Below, piece after piece: positions 10,271 through 17,308 of a stretch of DNA of 42,542 bases. Every line of letters starts with the position of its first letter. Position 1 is the stretch's first letter. Position numbers and translations under genes: made by a program. Below the pieces are notes generated by a model. It had not been told where the DNA came from. It was given only the letters and a program-made list of their open reading frames with translations, and searched no databases. Source of the DNA: Ignavibacteria bacterium (lineage in GTDB: Bacteria > Bacteroidota > Ignavibacteria > Kapaibacteriales > UBA4661); NCBI GenBank assembly GCA_013298775.1, contig JAAFIV010000039.1:1-42542 (forward strand). The letters are read 5' to 3'.

Positions 10271-10287
10271 TTGCAAATCATTTGCAA
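10271..10287. promoter_or_regulatory. Perfect 17-bp palindrome, putative Fur/Zur-family operator
   Basis: TTGCAAATCATTTGCAA is a perfect 8-1-8 palindrome. Its core has the 7-1-7 layout with an AT-n-AT centre known for Fur/Zur-family boxes, although the half-site sequence differs from the classical ones. It covers the -33 TTTG (10281-10284) of the promoter for the His-rich gene, a position suited to repression. The downstream genes look metal-related, so Zur is the favoured regulator. This is inference: no regulator gene is in the window. Confidence 0.6.
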
Positions 10288-10316: not shown

Positions 10317-10742
10317 ATGCAACAGGCAACCACACATACAACCCGCACCGCACCAACGCCCATCTGGACGCGCTTTGTCGCAGCACTCGCGCTCATGCTT
10401 TTTTGCCTTGTACGCACTGCTGCCATTTCGCACTCGCACGCGCATCCCTACGAGGCGCAGCATCACAAAGCGCAGCATCACAAAGCGCAGCATCACAAAG
10501 CGCAGCATCACGAACACGATTCAGATGCACCGCATCATTCCGATAACGAGCCAGAAGAAACCTGCTCTCTTTGCGACCTTCTCGCACATTCTCCCCTAGA
10601 AAGCCCATCAATACTTGTCTTTGAAGCAAGCACGGTATCACTATTTGCAATTATCGCTCTTCCGAAGACAACTGCACCACTTTCTCGCACACCGCGCTCC
10701 CTCGCAGACCGCGCCCCACCTGCCTTTCCAGCTCTTGCGTAA
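10317..10742 (+). CDS. Small exported His-rich protein with CxxC motif
   Basis: This 141-residue protein has a positively charged N-terminus and one hydrophobic segment (residues 18-37), read as a signal peptide or membrane anchor. The mature part starts with SHSHAH, then four KAQHH-type pentapeptides (residues 46-65), HEHDSDAPHH, and ETCSLCDL with C83 and C86. The rest is a hydrophobic stretch and a Pro/Arg-rich tail. The His cluster plus CxxC suggests binding of zinc or a similar divalent metal in the periplasm. I recognise no named domain. Comparable short His-rich/CxxC proteins are known ahead of TonB receptors in Bacteroidota. The gene directly follows the palindromic operator and precedes the receptor gene by 94 bases, so the two are probably co-transcribed. 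It could also act as a metal buffer or a signalling partner of the receptor. Confidence 0.75.
   Translation: MQQATTHTTRTAPTPIWTRFVAALALMLFCLVRTAAISHSHAHPYEAQHHKAQHHKAQHHKAQHHEHDSDAPHHSDNEPEETCSLCDLLAHSPLESPSILVFEASTVSLFAIIALPKTTAPLSRTPRSLADRAPPAFPALA
10452..10511 (+). repeat. 15-bp x 4 tandem repeat encoding KAQHH
   Basis: Four near-identical 15-bp units (aaagcgcagcatcac; the first begins gag) give EAQHH and three KAQHH copies in the His-rich protein. The units are almost identical at DNA level, which points to a recent expansion. Slippage here would change the number of histidines without breaking the frame. Confidence 0.9.
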
Positions 10743-10835: not shown

Positions 10836-13337
10836 ATGCCACTTCCACGACACAGCCTCGCACTGTGCGCGTTGATACTCCTTTTGAGCAATACCACGCT
10901 CCAAAGCCAGATTCTACGCGGCACCGTGCGCGATGCTTCCAGCAACAAACCGCTTTCCGGCGCACGTATCCAACTCTTGGAAACAAGACGTGGTGCGCTC
11001 TCTGGGGCGGATGGCTCGTTTGTGCTGCGCTCCACACAAGACGCGCCAACGCTTCGCATTGCACTTTTGGGCTATCAAACTCTTGAAAAGCTCATAGAAT
11101 CTGGGTTGCAGGACACCATTACCCTTGACATTCGCCTGAAACCAAGCGCAGTGCGGCTTGGAACGGCACGTATAGAAACCGACCGCCTTGCTTCCGAAAA
11201 TATGCCAACACAAAATGTTACGACCGTCTCAGGACAAGAACTGGAGCGGCTTCGCGGGCAGACGCTTGGCGAAGCATTGCAAAATGTGGCAGGAATTACG
11301 CTACTGCAAACAGGCGCGTCCATTGCAAAGCCCGTCATTCGTGGGCTGCACAGCCAGCGCGTTATCGTCGTGAATGCAGGAGTGGCGCAAGAAGGGCAGC
11401 AATGGGGCGCGGAACACGCTCCCGAAATTGACCCCTTTGCAGCGCAGCGCATTGAGCTAGTACGCGGTGCGGCGGGCGTGGAGTACGGCGCAGGCGCGAT
11501 TGGCGGCGTAATTCGCGTGGAGCCGCGCCACATCCCGCATGGAGACTGGTTCAGTGGCGAAGCACAGATGGCACTTTTTAGCAATAACTCACAAGGCGCA
11601 TTGTCGCTGGCGTTGGAGGGCGGCAAGATAGAGATTGGCGAGAAAAACAGTGTGGTGCATTCGCTTGGAAATGGCTTCGGATGGCGTGTTCAGGGCAGCG
11701 CGAGGAAAGCGGGCGATTCCCGCGCACCAAACTACGTCATCGGCAACACGGGTTTTCAGGAAATAAACGGCTCGGCTGCCTTTGGCTACACGGGTGAGAA
11801 ATTCAGTATTGAAGCCTATTACTCGCTGTTTACGACTGAACTCGGTATTTTTCGCGGTGCGCACATTGGCAATTTGAACGATTTGCTCCGCGCTATCGAA
11901 ACAGGAAAGCCGCTTGTGAACTACGATTGGACGTATTCCATTCGCAACCCAAAACAGCAAATTTCGCACGACTTATGGTCGGTAAAAGCACGATATAATG
12001 CGGACTTTGGGCAATTCGAGATGCAATACGGCTGGCAGCAAAACAACCGCGCCGAGTTCGACAGCCACAATGCTCGTATTCGCAGCGATTCGGGCTTGCT
12101 TCTCGCTTCGCTGGAACGTCCAGCGATGACGCTGCAACTTACCACCTATTCGCTTGATGCAAAATTCCGCCACAAGCCGCTTGAAATCTGGCACAGCGAC
12201 ACGTCGTCCAGCGCACTCACGGGAGTTGTTGGCGCAAGCGGCATGGCGCAGTGGAACGTGCAAGGCGGCAGAACCTTCCTTATTCCCAGCTTCCAAGCCG
12301 AATCTGCGGGATTGTACGCAATCGAAACGCTCACGACACCTGATTTTACTGCCAATCTGGGGCTTCGCTACGATGCAAAGCAGATAGCAGTACGCGGCTC
12401 CTCCAGCAGAGGCATTCCCGACACAACGCAAGTATTTACGGGCTTTTCAGCCGCAGCGGGGATAAAGTATGAAATCGGAAGTATGAATTATGAAAAATCT
12501 ACGGACACCACCAACCAAGCAACCAAGCTCCAAGCAACCAAGACCCAAGTAACCAACGCACCAACAACCATATCGCTCAATTTTGGCATGGCGTGGCGTG
12601 CGCCGCTTGTGAATGAGCAGTTTTCGTTGGGGGTACATCACGGAACGGCGCAGTATGAAATCGGCAATAGTCGCCTTCAGGCAGAACGCAGTTACAGTGC
12701 GGACTTGACGCTTTCTCACACGGCGGAAACGCTGCGTTTTGAAGTGAGCGGTTATGCCAATGCGATTGAGAATTTTATCTACCTCCGCCCCGATGCTGTA
12801 AACCCCACCATTACTATTCGCGGCACATTTCCGACGTTTTTTTACACACAAACCTTTGCGTTGCTGACGGGCGCAGATGCAAGTTTTGATGCGGTGTTGG
12901 TAAAATTTTCTCACAATAATTCGTTGGTGCGCGTTGGCGGAACGGCTTCGCTGGTGCGCGGCACGAATATTACGGACGCAGAGCCGCTTATTTTCATGCC
13001 CGCCGACAGAGTGCGCGTGTTTATGCGATTTGAAGCACCGTTGCTCTTCGGTATGGAAAATGTTTTCGTGGAAGCCGCATCACTGCTGGTGCGGACGCAA
13101 GACCGTTTTCCGCAAAATGTGGATTACGCCGTGCCTCCTGCGGGATATGTGCTGTTTGATGTTTCGCTCGGAAGCACGGTGGAGGCACTCGGTACGCGGT
13201 TTTCGTGGAGTATTGCGGCGCGGAACATAGCAAATACGCCCTTCAGAGACTATCTCAGCAGGTATCGGTATTTCACCGATGATGCGGGTAGGAACGTGAT
13301 TCTGCGGCTTTCGGTGCCGTTTGGTGATGGGCGGTGA
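10836..13337 (+). CDS. TonB-dependent receptor, ZnuD-like subfamily
   Basis: An outer-membrane TonB-dependent receptor of 833 residues. It has a signal peptide (residues 1-24), a carboxypeptidase-regulatory-like beta-sandwich (about 26-105, starting ILRGTVRDASSNKPLSGA), a plug domain (about 125-235) and a 22-strand barrel to the C-terminus. The plug carries the block EGQQWGAEHAPEIDPFAA followed by RGAAGVEYGAGAIGGVI. The first of these is shared by Bacteroidota receptors often annotated as ZnuD-like zinc or iron-complex receptors. The substrate is inferred as zinc because of the His-rich gene upstream and the COG0523 gene downstream; heme, iron-siderophore or cobalamin uptake remains possible. 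A Thr/Gln/Lys-rich loop (around residues 550-580) contains a tandem repeat and is probably extracellular. The stop codon is 3 bases from that of the convergent yoeB-like gene. Confidence 0.88.
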   Translation: MPLPRHSLALCALILLLSNTTLQSQILRGTVRDASSNKPLSGARIQLLETRRGALSGADGSFVLRSTQDAPTLRIALLGYQTLEKLIESGLQDTITLDIRLKPSAVRLGTARIETDRLASENMPTQNVTTVSGQELERLRGQTLGEALQNVAGITLLQTGASIAKPVIRGLHSQRVIVVNAGVAQEGQQWGAEHAPEIDPFAAQRIELVRGAAGVEYGAGAIGGVIRVEPRHIPHGDWFSGEAQMALFSNNSQGALSLALEGGKIEIGEKNSVVHSLGNGFGWRVQGSARKAGDSRAPNYVIGNTGFQEINGSAAFGYTGEKFSIEAYYSLFTTELGIFRGAHIGNLNDLLRAIETGKPLVNYDWTYSIRNPKQQISHDLWSVKARYNADFGQFEMQYGWQQNNRAEFDSHNARIRSDSGLLLASLERPAMTLQLTTYSLDAKFRHKPLEIWHSDTSSSALTGVVGASGMAQWNVQGGRTFLIPSFQAESAGLYAIETLTTPDFTANLGLRYDAKQIAVRGSSSRGIPDTTQVFTGFSAAAGIKYEIGSMNYEKSTDTTNQATKLQATKTQVTNAPTTISLNFGMAWRAPLVNEQFSLGVHHGTAQYEIGNSRLQAERSYSADLTLSHTAETLRFEVSGYANAIENFIYLRPDAVNPTITIRGTFPTFFYTQTFALLTGADASFDAVLVKFSHNNSLVRVGGTASLVRGTNITDAEPLIFMPADRVRVFMRFEAPLLFGMENVFVEAASLLVRTQDRFPQNVDYAVPPAGYVLFDVSLGSTVEALGTRFSWSIAARNIANTPFRDYLSRYRYFTDDAGRNVILRLSVPFGDGR
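12516..12560 (+). repeat. 15-bp x 3 tandem repeat in a receptor loop
   Basis: Units caagcaaccaagctc, caagcaaccaagacc and caagtaaccaacgca lie in tandem in the receptor gene and encode a QATKL-like stretch. The sequence is polar and low in complexity, as expected of a surface loop rather than a barrel strand. Confidence 0.75.
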
Positions 13338-13340
13338 GGT

Positions 13341-13601
13341 CTATTCGTAATGATATTTACACGCCAGAACGAGAATGACATCATCCTGAACACGATACAC
13401 AAAGCGGTGTTCATCGGTGATACGGCGCGACCAACAGCCTTGATGCTGATGTTTCAATGGTTCAGGCTTGCCTGTGCCTGTAAATGGCGTTCGGCGGCAC
13501 TCTTCCACCAAACGCGCAATTTTATTGAACGTTTTGCGGTCGGTGTTTGCCCACTCGGTGAACTGCTCGAAGGCAATATCAGAGAACTGAATTTGTTTCA
13601 T
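13341..13601 (-). CDS. yoeB: Txe/YoeB family mRNA interferase toxin
   Basis: An 86-residue RelE-superfamily toxin; the family cuts mRNA at the ribosomal A site. The start at 13601 gives MKQIQFSDIAFEQFTEWA, the usual YoeB opening, and a length close to E. coli YoeB (84). Residues matching the YoeB active site are present: E47, R66, H84 and Y85 in the C-terminal KYHYE. The open frame extends to 13652, but that part lies inside the antitoxin gene and is not homologous to the family. The start overlaps the antitoxin's 3' end by 23 bases, a typical coupled toxin-antitoxin arrangement. It converges on the TonB receptor gene. Confidence 0.93.
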   Translation of the reverse strand: MKQIQFSDIAFEQFTEWANTDRKTFNKIARLVEECRRTPFTGTGKPEPLKHQHQGCWSRRITDEHRFVYRVQDDVILVLACKYHYE

Positions 13602-13890
13602 AGCTGCTAATAATCGCCTCGCTCGGATGCGCTCCAGCAAGAATTTTATCAATATCCACCGTGATGAGTTTGCCTTCTTCGGCGTGGCGCATAGACTCTA
13701 GCAAACGCGCATAATTAGCAGGATTGCTCATTAAAAATTCGGTTTCATCCATAGCGTCATCATCCTCAGAATGACCATTGGAAGCAGGCTGCACGGTAAT
13801 TGTCAGTTCTTTATCTCGAAAAAGCATTTTCACTGCTTCGAGAAACTGCTCATTCAATTCCGCAGCGTTTAGGCGAAAGGTTGTGTGCAT
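13579..13890 (-). CDS. YefM/Phd-like antitoxin partner of the YoeB toxin
   Basis: A 103-residue protein directly upstream of and overlapping the toxin gene. The N-terminal half (FRLNAAELNEQFLEAVKMLF) looks like a short DNA-binding or dimerisation part. The central segment is acidic and probably disordered (SEDDDAMDETEFL). The C-terminal MSNPANYARLLESM resembles the YefM/Axe tail (LLSSPANAERLLES) that wraps the toxin. It should neutralise YoeB and, with it, autoregulate the operon. A further C-terminal stretch (ITVDIDKILAGAHPS) is longer than in typical YefM. Confidence 0.82.
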   Translation of the reverse strand: MHTTFRLNAAELNEQFLEAVKMLFRDKELTITVQPASNGHSEDDDAMDETEFLMSNPANYARLLESMRHAEEGKLITVDIDKILAGAHPSEAIISSYETNSVL

Positions 13891-15060: not shown

Positions 15061-15648
15061 ATGAACAACTCATTGTTTTCGACTACTAATGCAACAATCA
15101 CCAAAGCCGCATTGGTACTCATTATTGCGGTAATCTTCGGTGCGACAAATGCTTGCCGACCCATTAACGCCCCCACCAACACCGCAGAGGAAGTGCTTCC
15201 CAACGAAGTAACGCTCACGCTGACCAGCCCCCAAGGCAACGCAACGGCTCTCTGGCGTAGCGCGACCGACGTAAAAGGCATGGCGACCCGCATAGATACG
15301 CTTGTTCTGGCAGCAGGACGCACGTACACAGGCAGAATCACGGCAGTCAATAACGCCAAAACACCGAGCGTTGATTTAACCGCCGAGTACAAAAAAGAAG
15401 CTGATAAGCACCAGTTTTTCTACACGGTTACGGGCGATGCGCAAAACCGCGTTACCTTTGCGATTACCGACAAAGACGGCAATAACCTTCCTGTGGGCTT
15501 GGAGTTTACCGTTGCGGCAACGAGCGGTAGTGCGGCTCGCGGCACGTTGAATGTTGTTTTGGGACACTACGACGACGTGAAGAAAATGGGAACAAATCGT
15601 AGTCCTGAGAGTGATATTGACATCAATTTTCCAGTGGTGATTCGGTAG
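15061..15648 (+). CDS. Putative lipoprotein, ZnuD-receptor-associated family
   Basis: A 195-residue protein from the ATG at 15061. The N-terminus has a hydrophobic core (AALVLIIAVIFGA) ending in TNAC, with C32 as the probable lipidation site; the -3 position is Thr rather than the usual Leu, so the lipobox is weak. The mature part is all-beta: EVTLTLTS, then RTYTGRITAVN, then the conserved-looking DKHQFFYTVTG (here ADKHQFFYTVTG), then GTLNVVLGHYDDVKK and a DIDINFPV end. Bacteroidota proteins with the same EVTLTLT / TYTG / HQFFF / DI-V-F pattern commonly lie beside TonB receptors and are annotated as type 1 periplasmic-binding-fold lipoproteins. That parallel is recalled, not searched. It probably acts at the outer membrane with the receptor at 10836. 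A strong terminator follows at 15670. Confidence 0.7.
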   Translation: MNNSLFSTTNATITKAALVLIIAVIFGATNACRPINAPTNTAEEVLPNEVTLTLTSPQGNATALWRSATDVKGMATRIDTLVLAAGRTYTGRITAVNNAKTPSVDLTAEYKKEADKHQFFYTVTGDAQNRVTFAITDKDGNNLPVGLEFTVAATSGSAARGTLNVVLGHYDDVKKMGTNRSPESDIDINFPVVIR

Positions 15649-15746: not shown

Positions 15747-16787
15747 ATGCAGAGTGTATCCAAAACAGCCATTCCCATCACGGTTTTATGCGGCTTTCTG
15801 GGCAGCGGCAAAACCACGATGCTCAACAATCTTCTCAAAAACAGCGACGGGAAAAAACTTGCCGTTATCGTCAATGAATTCGGCGAAGTGAACATTGATG
15901 CGGGCATGGTAACGCACACCACCGAGCAGATGATAGAACTTTCCAACGGCTGTATTTGCTGCACCCTGCGTGGAGACTTGATTGAAGCCGTTGATGACAT
16001 TTTGAACACCCGCGAAGTGGACGGCATCGTGATAGAATCTACGGGCATTGGCGAGCCGTTTCCGATTGCACAGGCGTTTTACATTGAGCCGGAATTGCTT
16101 GCACTGAAGCCTGAACTCCCCAATCTACGCGGGCGTGTGAAGGTGGATGCCGTGATTACCGTCGTGGATGCGGCACAGTTTTTCGACCTCTACAAACGCG
16201 ACGGACTATTACCTGACGACCAGAATCAGCGCGGCTTTGGGCAGCTTTTAGCAGAGCAAATCGAAGGCGCGGATGTGATTGTAATTAACAAAATTGACCT
16301 CGTAGAAGAAGAAATATTGGACGACCTCGAAGAATTTTTGGGATTGACCAATCCCCGCGCAAAGCTCATTTTCACCGAACACGGCGACGCGCCGCTTGAA
16401 GAGGTGATGAATACGGGCTTGTTCAATATCACCGTTGCCGAGCAGTCCCCAACGTGGCTGTACGAACTCGCCAACGAACACGGCTCGGAAGCGGAAGAAT
16501 ACGGCATTTCGGCATTTGTCTATAAAAACAAACGCCGCTTCGATGAGCAAAAGCTCATTAAAACGCTGGAACGTGGTTTCTCACCGAACTTGTTGCGGTC
16601 AAAAGGCTGGGTTGCTTTGGAAGGCAGCAATGATGCATTTCTTTGGAATCAAGCCGGAAAGCAGCTTTCCTTCAGCCCTTTCGGGCAGTGGACATCGCCG
16701 GAACATATTCAAAACGAGATTGTCTTTATCGGCACGGAACTTGATGAAGAGCGCATTACGACTATGTTGGATGAGGCGTTGGTGTAG
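15747..16787 (+). CDS. COG0523 (CobW/YeiR-type) metal-binding GTPase
   Basis: A G3E-family P-loop GTPase of 346 residues. The family delivers metal to target enzymes or handles zinc limitation. Walker A is GFLGSGKTT (residues 16-24). The metal-binding motif CICC is at residues 69-72. The ESTGIGEP block and NKIDLVE (base specificity) follow. A C-terminal CobW_C domain starts near [10 protein letters not shown]. The start at 15747 ([16 protein letters not shown]) is preferred to 15717 because the P-loop then begins close to the N-terminus, as usual. No long His-rich loop is present, unlike some zinc members. No cobalamin genes are nearby, and the surrounding receptor and His-rich proteins favour a zinc role over a cobalt one; this is inference. 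It is followed after 44 bases by the His-striped coiled-coil gene. Confidence 0.9.
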
Positions 16788-16831: not shown

Positions 16832-17308
16832 ATGAAACTCCGTTTTTCTCTCGCAACCATCGTGTGCTTCTGCGCCTCATCAATCCTCGCTTTTGGGCAG
16901 ATGACGCATGAACAGCTTGCCGAAAAGCATAAAGCTCTCGAAGCAGAACACCGCACAATGGAGAAGGAGCATCGCCAAATGGAAAAAGAGCATCAGAAAA
17001 TGATGCGCGAACATGATAAACGTTCCAAAGGCAAAGATGCTGACCATAAATCCCTCGAAAAGGCGCATAAACAGATGATGCGCGACCACGACAAAATTGT
17101 GCGCCAACACGATAAACTCATTCGCCAACACGCGGCATTGGAAAAGCGTCATAAATCTGGCAAAGTGAGCGCGGAGCAAATGGCAAAAGACCACGAAATG
17201 CTCGAAAAAGAGCATGAAACCATGAAGCAAGAGCATGAGAAAATGAAACAAGACCACGAAAAAATGAAGCAGGAACACGAGAAAATGCTGGAAGAACACA
17301 AGAAATAA
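16832..17308 (+). CDS. Exported His-striped coiled-coil protein, putative metal binder
   Basis: A 158-residue protein: a signal peptide (residues 1-23, ending ILAFGQ) and then a single long charged helix. The mature chain has 18 histidines. Almost all are exactly seven residues apart, in motifs such as EHRTMEK, EHRQMEK, DHDKIVR, QHDKLIR, EHEKMKQ and DHEKMKQ. The only breaks are one 11-residue step (a stutter, 7+4) and one 14-residue step (two heptads). Methionine often lies three residues after the histidine. Histidine therefore forms a stripe along one face of a coiled coil, which could bind many zinc or copper ions in the periplasm. I know of no named family. It follows the COG0523 GTPase by 44 bases with no terminator in between, so co-transcription is likely. 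A purely structural or stress-related coiled coil is the alternative. Confidence 0.85.
   Translation: MKLRFSLATIVCFCASSILAFGQMTHEQLAEKHKALEAEHRTMEKEHRQMEKEHQKMMREHDKRSKGKDADHKSLEKAHKQMMRDHDKIVRQHDKLIRQHAALEKRHKSGKVSAEQMAKDHEMLEKEHETMKQEHEKMKQDHEKMKQEHEKMLEEHKK
17189..17293 (+). repeat. 21-bp heptad repeat x 5 at the 3' end of the coiled-coil gene
   Basis: Five 21-bp units encode DHEMLEK, EHETMKQ, EHEKMKQ, DHEKMKQ and EHEKMLE. Codons vary between units (cat/cac, gag/gaa, aag/aaa), so the protein pattern is better preserved than the DNA, which argues for selection on the heptad. Confidence 0.8.

Follow-up and report, generated by a model that had tools for sequence, protein, structure and literature searches.

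A predicted exported three-helix protein with 18 regularly spaced histidines and its lipoprotein-like relatives in Bacteroidota

The window analysed here comprises all 42,542 nucleotides of positions 1 to 42,542 of contig JAAFIV010000039.1 from an Ignavibacteria bacterium (assembly GCA_013298775.1). On its forward strand, at 16832-17308 (stop codon included), lies a gene for a protein of 158 residues, referred to here as the His-stripe protein. Two orthologues, 87% and 79% identical to it, keep all 18 of its stripe histidines; the matching records are RDXM01000138.1 and JALONG010000047.1 (Candidatus Kapaibacterium sp.). Residues 1-22 (16832-16897, forward strand) resemble by eye a signal sequence without a lipobox Cys, in line with the original prediction, made from the sequence alone, that the protein is exported. 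The mature chain (residues 23-158) contains no Cys and has its histidines at positions 26, 33, 40, 47, 54, 61, 72, 79, 86, 93, 100, 107, 121, 128, 135, 142, 149, and 156. Five steps of seven residues are followed by one of 11, five of seven, one of 14, and again five of seven, which gives blocks of 6 + 6 + 6. Exact seven-residue steps thus account for 15 of the 17, compared with a mean of 0.99 and a maximum of 6 in 20,000 composition-preserving shuffles, bearing out the predicted seven-residue step with one 11-residue stutter and one 14-residue gap. Met had been noticed frequently at +3 and follows 8 of the 18 His at this distance, with Leu, Met, Ile, or Val after 15 of the 18. The 14-residue gap stays in the heptad, with Ala114 at the His place and Met117 at +3. 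Since His falls on heptad position 'a' and the +3 residue on 'd', His would form one core position and Leu, Met, and Ile the other.

AlphaFold2 modelled the mature protein, using a three-sequence input, as helices at residues 26-65, 70-109, and 114-157 (mean pLDDT 87.0, pTM 0.74). The orthologue from genome G007, modelled alone, gave three helices in nearly the same places (pLDDT 87.4, pTM 0.73). All parts of the model lie on the forward strand. Helix 1 (mature residues 4-43; 16907-17026) carries His 26, 33, 40, 47, 54, and 61, helix 2 (mature residues 48-87; 17039-17158) carries His 72, 79, 86, 93, 100, and 107, and helix 3 (mature residues 92-135; 17171-17302) carries His 121, 128, 135, 142, 149, and 156. 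Loop 1 (residues 66-69; 17027-17038) lies within the 11-residue stutter and contains Gly or Pro in many divergent relatives, and loop 2 (residues 110-113, Gly-Lys-Val-Ser; 17159-17170) lies within the 14-residue gap. The coiled coil that had been predicted to span nearly all of the chain was not upheld. A single long coiled coil was rejected, as was a charged single helix, since both models turn at the two gaps, where many relatives have Gly, Pro, or helix-capping residues. The predicted His stripe does occupy one helix face, with Leu, Met, or Ile at +3, but a zipper of long chains is not favored, since the chain is predicted to fold into a hairpin bundle of three helices whose His point inward. 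According to these models, the protein is probably a small exported three-helix fold with 18 regularly spaced His lining its inner faces.

Searches with the predicted fold pointed to no relative. Foldseek returned zero matches at E 0.001, and VIA-align returned helical bundles, BAR-type domains, and designed proteins, with a best Z of 14.5 (ULK1 complex core). Against solved structures, phmmer matched a CFAP58 coiled coil (E 3e-4) and a designed protein (E 0.07), and a profile of ten members gave three matches (best E 0.048), one of them a designed maquette. A family may be missing from the structure sets that were searched.

To describe the relatives, we refer to the proteins of the window genome (G000, 5.19 Mb), G005, and G007, three of eight same-genus genomes, as the Kapabacterium members. 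A first genome search matched five of 61 genomes, of which three were kept and G020 and G051 dropped (internal stops or low complexity). Among plasmids, a search turned up a relative of full length in Persicobacter sp. JZB09, a member of the Bacteroidota, with 33.8% identity across 97% (E 3e-20). With a profile, 23 of 395 genomes matched in the phylum of the window (Bacteroidota by inference) and 17 were taken as carriers; G065, G132, G172, G263, G313, and G319 were dropped as unrelated, of low complexity, broken by stops, or, for G313, having just 6 His. The order of G348 yielded 18 matches in 346 genomes (8 taken) and the class of the window 11 in 245 (3 taken). Our alignment of 21 rows consists of the three Kapabacterium members and 18 others, L186 (the same protein as L183), L188, and L185 being left out; searched against the phylum sample, it matched 39 of 395 genomes, the extra matches not being classified one by one. 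Ten of the 21 are full-stripe members and 11 are divergent relatives with 8-13 of the 18 stripe His each. In 18/18 aligned members outside Kapabacterium, the signal ends in [GAS]-Cys, which points to a lipoprotein, whereas the Kapabacterium members lack this motif.

Judged by sequence comparison, the His-stripe proteins form a previously unnamed bacterial protein family, and homology among them is supported by their comparable length, the positions of their loops, and the lipobox. The window protein matched no Pfam or NCBIfam family above cut-off, no Pfam family matched more than two of the 21 members at E 0.01, and such a family is not described in titles or abstract beginnings of the open-licence literature among the matches listed. 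This agrees with the earlier statement that no described family is known to have this design. The SA0632 lipoprotein model NF047408, the NCBIfam family with the most matches, was hit weakly by 11 of the 21 members (best E 1e-7; 19 bits for P0001 against a cut-off of 70). It was set aside as coiled-coil noise, since a search at E up to 1 also produced matches, all below cut-off, in each of the 14 control genomes. In a pattern scan of viral sequences, 0 of 120 stretches among the matches listed were coiled-coil-like by our own filter. In three genomes, His-poor lipoproteins of families f42 and f54 adjoin His-stripe lipoproteins (L196 7032-7739, L201 7074-7718, L197 5931-6533) and are apparently their tandem paralogues. 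Seven-spaced His also occur independently at the N-terminus of a Leuconostoc heavy-metal P-type ATPase beside CopY (L162 3001-3600), which consists of seven-residue His/Met repeats. A Haladaptatus DUF6290 protein (L163 1866-2369) has a stretch with one His per heptad, Leu at +3, and no visible signal sequence.

Conservation in the family is concentrated on the stripe. Among the ten full-stripe members, 14 of the 18 stripe His are invariant, compared with 2 of the 114 other columns (residues 26-157), and identity outside the stripe, calculated for eight of these members, ranges from 17-34% across genera to 43% in a single same-genus pair. The homologue search that had been proposed thus found the stripe conserved in remote relatives. 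The variable stripe columns change in a restricted way: 128, 149, and 156 change to Asp only and 26 to Asp or Glu only, giving His-His-Asp layers. Position 'a' has a mean entropy of 0.32 bits, compared with 1.11 for 'd' and 1.50-1.89 for the other positions. In the 11 divergent relatives, 59 of the 87 non-His cells at 'a' are hydrophobic, which indicates that the stripe faces the core; the hydrophobic share of cells is 85% for 'd' and 33% for 'e', and 2-10% for b, c, f, and g.

Judging from the predicted helix ends, the His of the three helices come within two residues of one level in five sets: 33/100/121, 40/93/128, 47/86/135, 54/79/142, and 61/72/149. His 26 and 107 share a level with Ala114 and would form a two-His layer. 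Homologues without the stripe had been named as evidence against the original idea. Such His-poor relatives do exist and the divergent relatives keep only part of the stripe, but 20 of the 21 members retain three His in layer 54/79/142. Layers 26/107/114 and 33/100/121 are largely hydrophobic or Tyr in most divergent relatives. Full three-His layers number 19 in the 11 divergent relatives, compared with a mean of 8.9 over 720 x 720 pairings, of which a fraction of 0.0019 (0.19%) reach 19, in a test that treats relatives as independent, which they are not. The opposite helix direction scores lower (17 vs 26 for helices 1 and 2, 16 vs 26 for helices 2 and 3). In a generic bundle that we idealised ourselves, and not in the AlphaFold2 coordinates, C-beta distances within layers are about 6-10 Å.

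The gene for a COG0523/CobW-family GTPase of 346 residues (15747-16787, forward strand; PF02492 E 2e-54, PF07683 E 2e-21) ends at 16787, 44 bases upstream of the His-stripe gene, so the predicted direct succession holds; its NF038288 (ZigA) score of 311 bits is below the cut-off of 600. A small lipoprotein-like open reading frame (ORF; by eye) without a Pfam match at E 0.001 precedes it (15061-15648, forward strand), and a ZnuD-like TonB-dependent receptor (10836-13337, forward strand; PF00593, PF07715; NF038289 120 bits, below the cut-off of 950) lies about 3.5 kb upstream of the His-stripe gene. The downstream neighbor is an alpha/beta-hydrolase-like ORF (by eye). In G005, the order is COG0523 gene, counterpart of the small lipoprotein, second COG0523 gene, and His-stripe gene last. 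In G007, a run with COG0523 (L288) lies on another contig with no His-stripe gene after it, and the His-stripe gene has a LytR_C-like ORF (by eye) on one side and a sigma-70 family gene on the other. Pairs of small ORFs that look by eye like toxin-antitoxin pairs break the COG0523/lipoprotein neighborhood in different places (13341-13890 in the window; L288 3210-3981 in G007).

Just before a DUF2946 gene and the ZnuD-like gene, the window contains the inverted repeat TTGCAAATCATTTGCAA (10271-10287; 8-base arms, one-base centre), a possible Fur/Zur-type box. A genome search found two Fur-family genes. The next best Zur-box-like sites in the window have four mismatches, sites with three mismatches occur in L010, L288, and L008, and none lies directly before the His-stripe gene in the three species. 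The DUF2946 protein (10317-10742) has tandem His-His-Lys-Ala-Gln repeats and a weak likeness to CzcI, below cut-off.

Of the 18 aligned members outside Kapabacterium, 13 had their nearest ORFs read by eye (two contigs end nearby), and we ran Pfam on seven of these neighbors, which proved to be GrpE, DnaJ, chromate transporter, cation efflux, citrate-type transporter, LysE, and glutathione peroxidase. The cation-efflux (CDF) gene lies about 4 kb from the G281 member, with two ORFs between. No COG0523 or ZnuD-like gene was recognized by eye in these 13 loci, and the zinc link of the His-stripe gene is therefore local. The question whether homologues neighbor such genes is thus answered positively for COG0523 in two of the three Kapabacterium members, G000 and G005, but not in G007 or the 13 loci read by eye. 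A general zinc-operon gene is unsupported beyond G000 and G005.

We propose, with about even confidence, that the His-stripe protein is an exported single-chain antiparallel three-helix bundle (a modelled fold) whose His layers would bind transition metals and which would serve as an envelope metal buffer or store. The bundle would have His at its 'a' core positions and Leu, Met, or Ile at 'd', and its hairpins would bring one His per helix to about the same level, giving five three-His layers and the two-His layer 26/107. These layers may bind Zn(II), most likely in Kapabacterium, or possibly Cu(I) or Ag(I) via His-x-x-Met, and the metal would be buffered or stored by a free periplasmic protein in Kapabacterium and by lipid-anchored proteins in the other members. 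A metal-ligand role of the core is suggested because conservation is highest at His, above 'd', and because the substitutes in full-stripe members are acidic; the bundle would then be the His equivalent of the Cys-lined Csp copper stores and of designed three-helix proteins with tris-His sites. As genomic context for it, we count the COG0523 gene and ZnuD-like receptor of G000, the two COG0523 genes of G005, and the CDF gene near the G281 member. The layer register, metal binding, metal identity, location, and function are what we infer here. Only tentatively do we extend the proposal to a chain that would stack as many as five metal sites of the His3 or His2Asp type and have a further site of two His at its end. 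Such a chain would be a natural form of the designed tris-His bundles and match the Cys-lined copper storage proteins with His, and it would occur as lipoproteins across Bacteroidota with His54/His79/His142 as the ancestral site.

Several results weigh against metal-binding layers. Between G000 and G005, five His codons show synonymous changes and none of the 18 changes its amino acid; between G000 and G007, three do and again none of 18 changes residue, compared with 17 of 115 other codons, so purifying selection on the His codons has the right direction but is small. Because a His-rich profile served to find the members, their His conservation is in part selected. Single helix pairs give weaker support than all three together, as fractions of 0.022, 0.128, and 0.039 of the permutations reach the predicted pairing. 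Shifting a helix by one heptad scores higher per remaining layer (5.0 vs 4.3 for helices 1 and 2, 5.8 vs 4.3 for helices 3 and 2), which means that the layer test supports the helix direction and not the exact register. Outside the stripe, in-register identity (24-34%) only modestly exceeds heptad-shifted identity (13-25%), with no excess for L168. This modest excess would also fit a low-complexity array that spread by 21-bp duplication and whose relatives are convergent, without a fixed function. The DNA of the gene does contain 21-bp tandem repeats (76-81% match), from which we conclude that the array probably grew in part by duplication; yet an array without function is extremely improbable in view of the similar length of the members, their two gaps at the same places, the lipoprotein-type Cys in all 18 other aligned members, and His codons that change synonymously among three species with no amino-acid changes.

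Most neighborhoods, moreover, are not related to metals (grpE-dnaJ, a BMP-like lipoprotein by eye, a sigma-70 factor), and a His heptad with Leu at +3 occurs also in the unrelated DUF6290 protein. Diverse neighborhoods and His-heptad coiled coils in unrelated proteins, as well as the lipoprotein layout shared by the His-poor relatives, would be compatible with a bundle that acts as a structural spacer or mediates interactions in the envelope, its polar His layers determining only how the helices pair and binding no metal. We regard this as quite unlikely, because His is more conserved than the hydrophobic 'd' position, the reverse of what is expected for an ordinary packing core. The neighborhood of L192 and L193, two members from one genus whose gene lies beside and divergent from grpE-dnaJ (Pfam run on L193), raises a different option, a pH-responsive envelope protein or acid chaperone: its buried His would become charged below about pH 6, and the bundle would open and expose its Leu/Met face. 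The many predicted core His suit such a switch, which the His-to-Asp changes would also alter. However, the third member of this genus (L206/L249) has other neighbors, repeated three-His layers are not needed for a switch, and no known acid chaperone family appeared among the profile matches of the window protein and the 21 members, making this explanation very unlikely.

If the layers bind metal, the carriers own an envelope metal buffer based on His instead of Cys, and the unannotated lipoproteins gain a testable role if the proposal is true. The relatives can be placed in a natural series that begins with His-poor proteins, continues with those that conserve one layer, and ends with five layers, and in which site addition is directly testable. 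Among known envelope proteins, the LTxxQ family (Spy/CpxP/ZraP) has a Pfam model, and 'MTHEQL' and 'VSAEQM' resemble its motif; no Pfam match to this family was obtained for the window protein (E up to 1) or the 21 members (E 0.01). CopM shares export and richness in His and Met with the His-stripe protein; it binds copper and has 8 His and 23 Met, and DUF305 is marked by an H-H motif (PMC4335983). No DUF305 match was found for the window protein at E up to 1 or for the 21 members at E 0.01.

By motif, SilE is the nearest natural His/Met protein among those compared. Two studies describe ten His; among those mutated are 62/69, 80/87, 111/118, and 129/136, pairs with a spacing of seven. The chain is disordered without metal, folds when six Ag(I) are optimally bound, and is helical once loaded (PMC5008109; PMC10080550). 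SilE/PcoE and the His-stripe protein are alike in being small, exported, and His/Met-rich, with several His seven apart and His-x-x-Met motifs, of which the mature window protein has 8. By this likeness, the protein could be a sponge that is largely unfolded without metal and forms helices as Ag(I) or Cu(I) occupies its His-x-x-Met sites. We consider this unlikely: AlphaFold2 gives helices at pLDDT 87 without metal, though it cannot judge metal-free stability, and relatives frequently have Leu or Ile in place of the Met at +3, so that Met is not conserved as a ligand. SilE, moreover, has ten His, is initially disordered, and is part of the sil determinant, whereas the window protein has 18 His in three equal blocks and is predicted to be helical, and no sil or pco efflux genes were recognized by eye beside the His-stripe gene in the window or in the 13 other loci.

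The copper storage proteins MtCsp1 and Csp3 offer a likeness in architecture, a helical bundle with a residue-lined core, which for the His-stripe protein is predicted. According to PMC10155185, many metal-binding residues line the core of the Csp bundle, and MtCsp1 is predicted to be exported. Csp differs in being a four-helix bundle with a Cys core, whereas two predictions give the His-stripe protein three helices and its mature chain has no Cys. The proposed layers also resemble de novo three-stranded coiled coils, GRW-H and its relatives, in which one His per helix binds Zn(II) or Co(II) (PMC13262294). These are designed and have one His3 site per three-peptide assembly, whereas the window protein is a natural single chain with up to five proposed layers; if these layers bind metal, evolution in bacteria has produced in repeated form the tris-His core of which chemists have made single sites.
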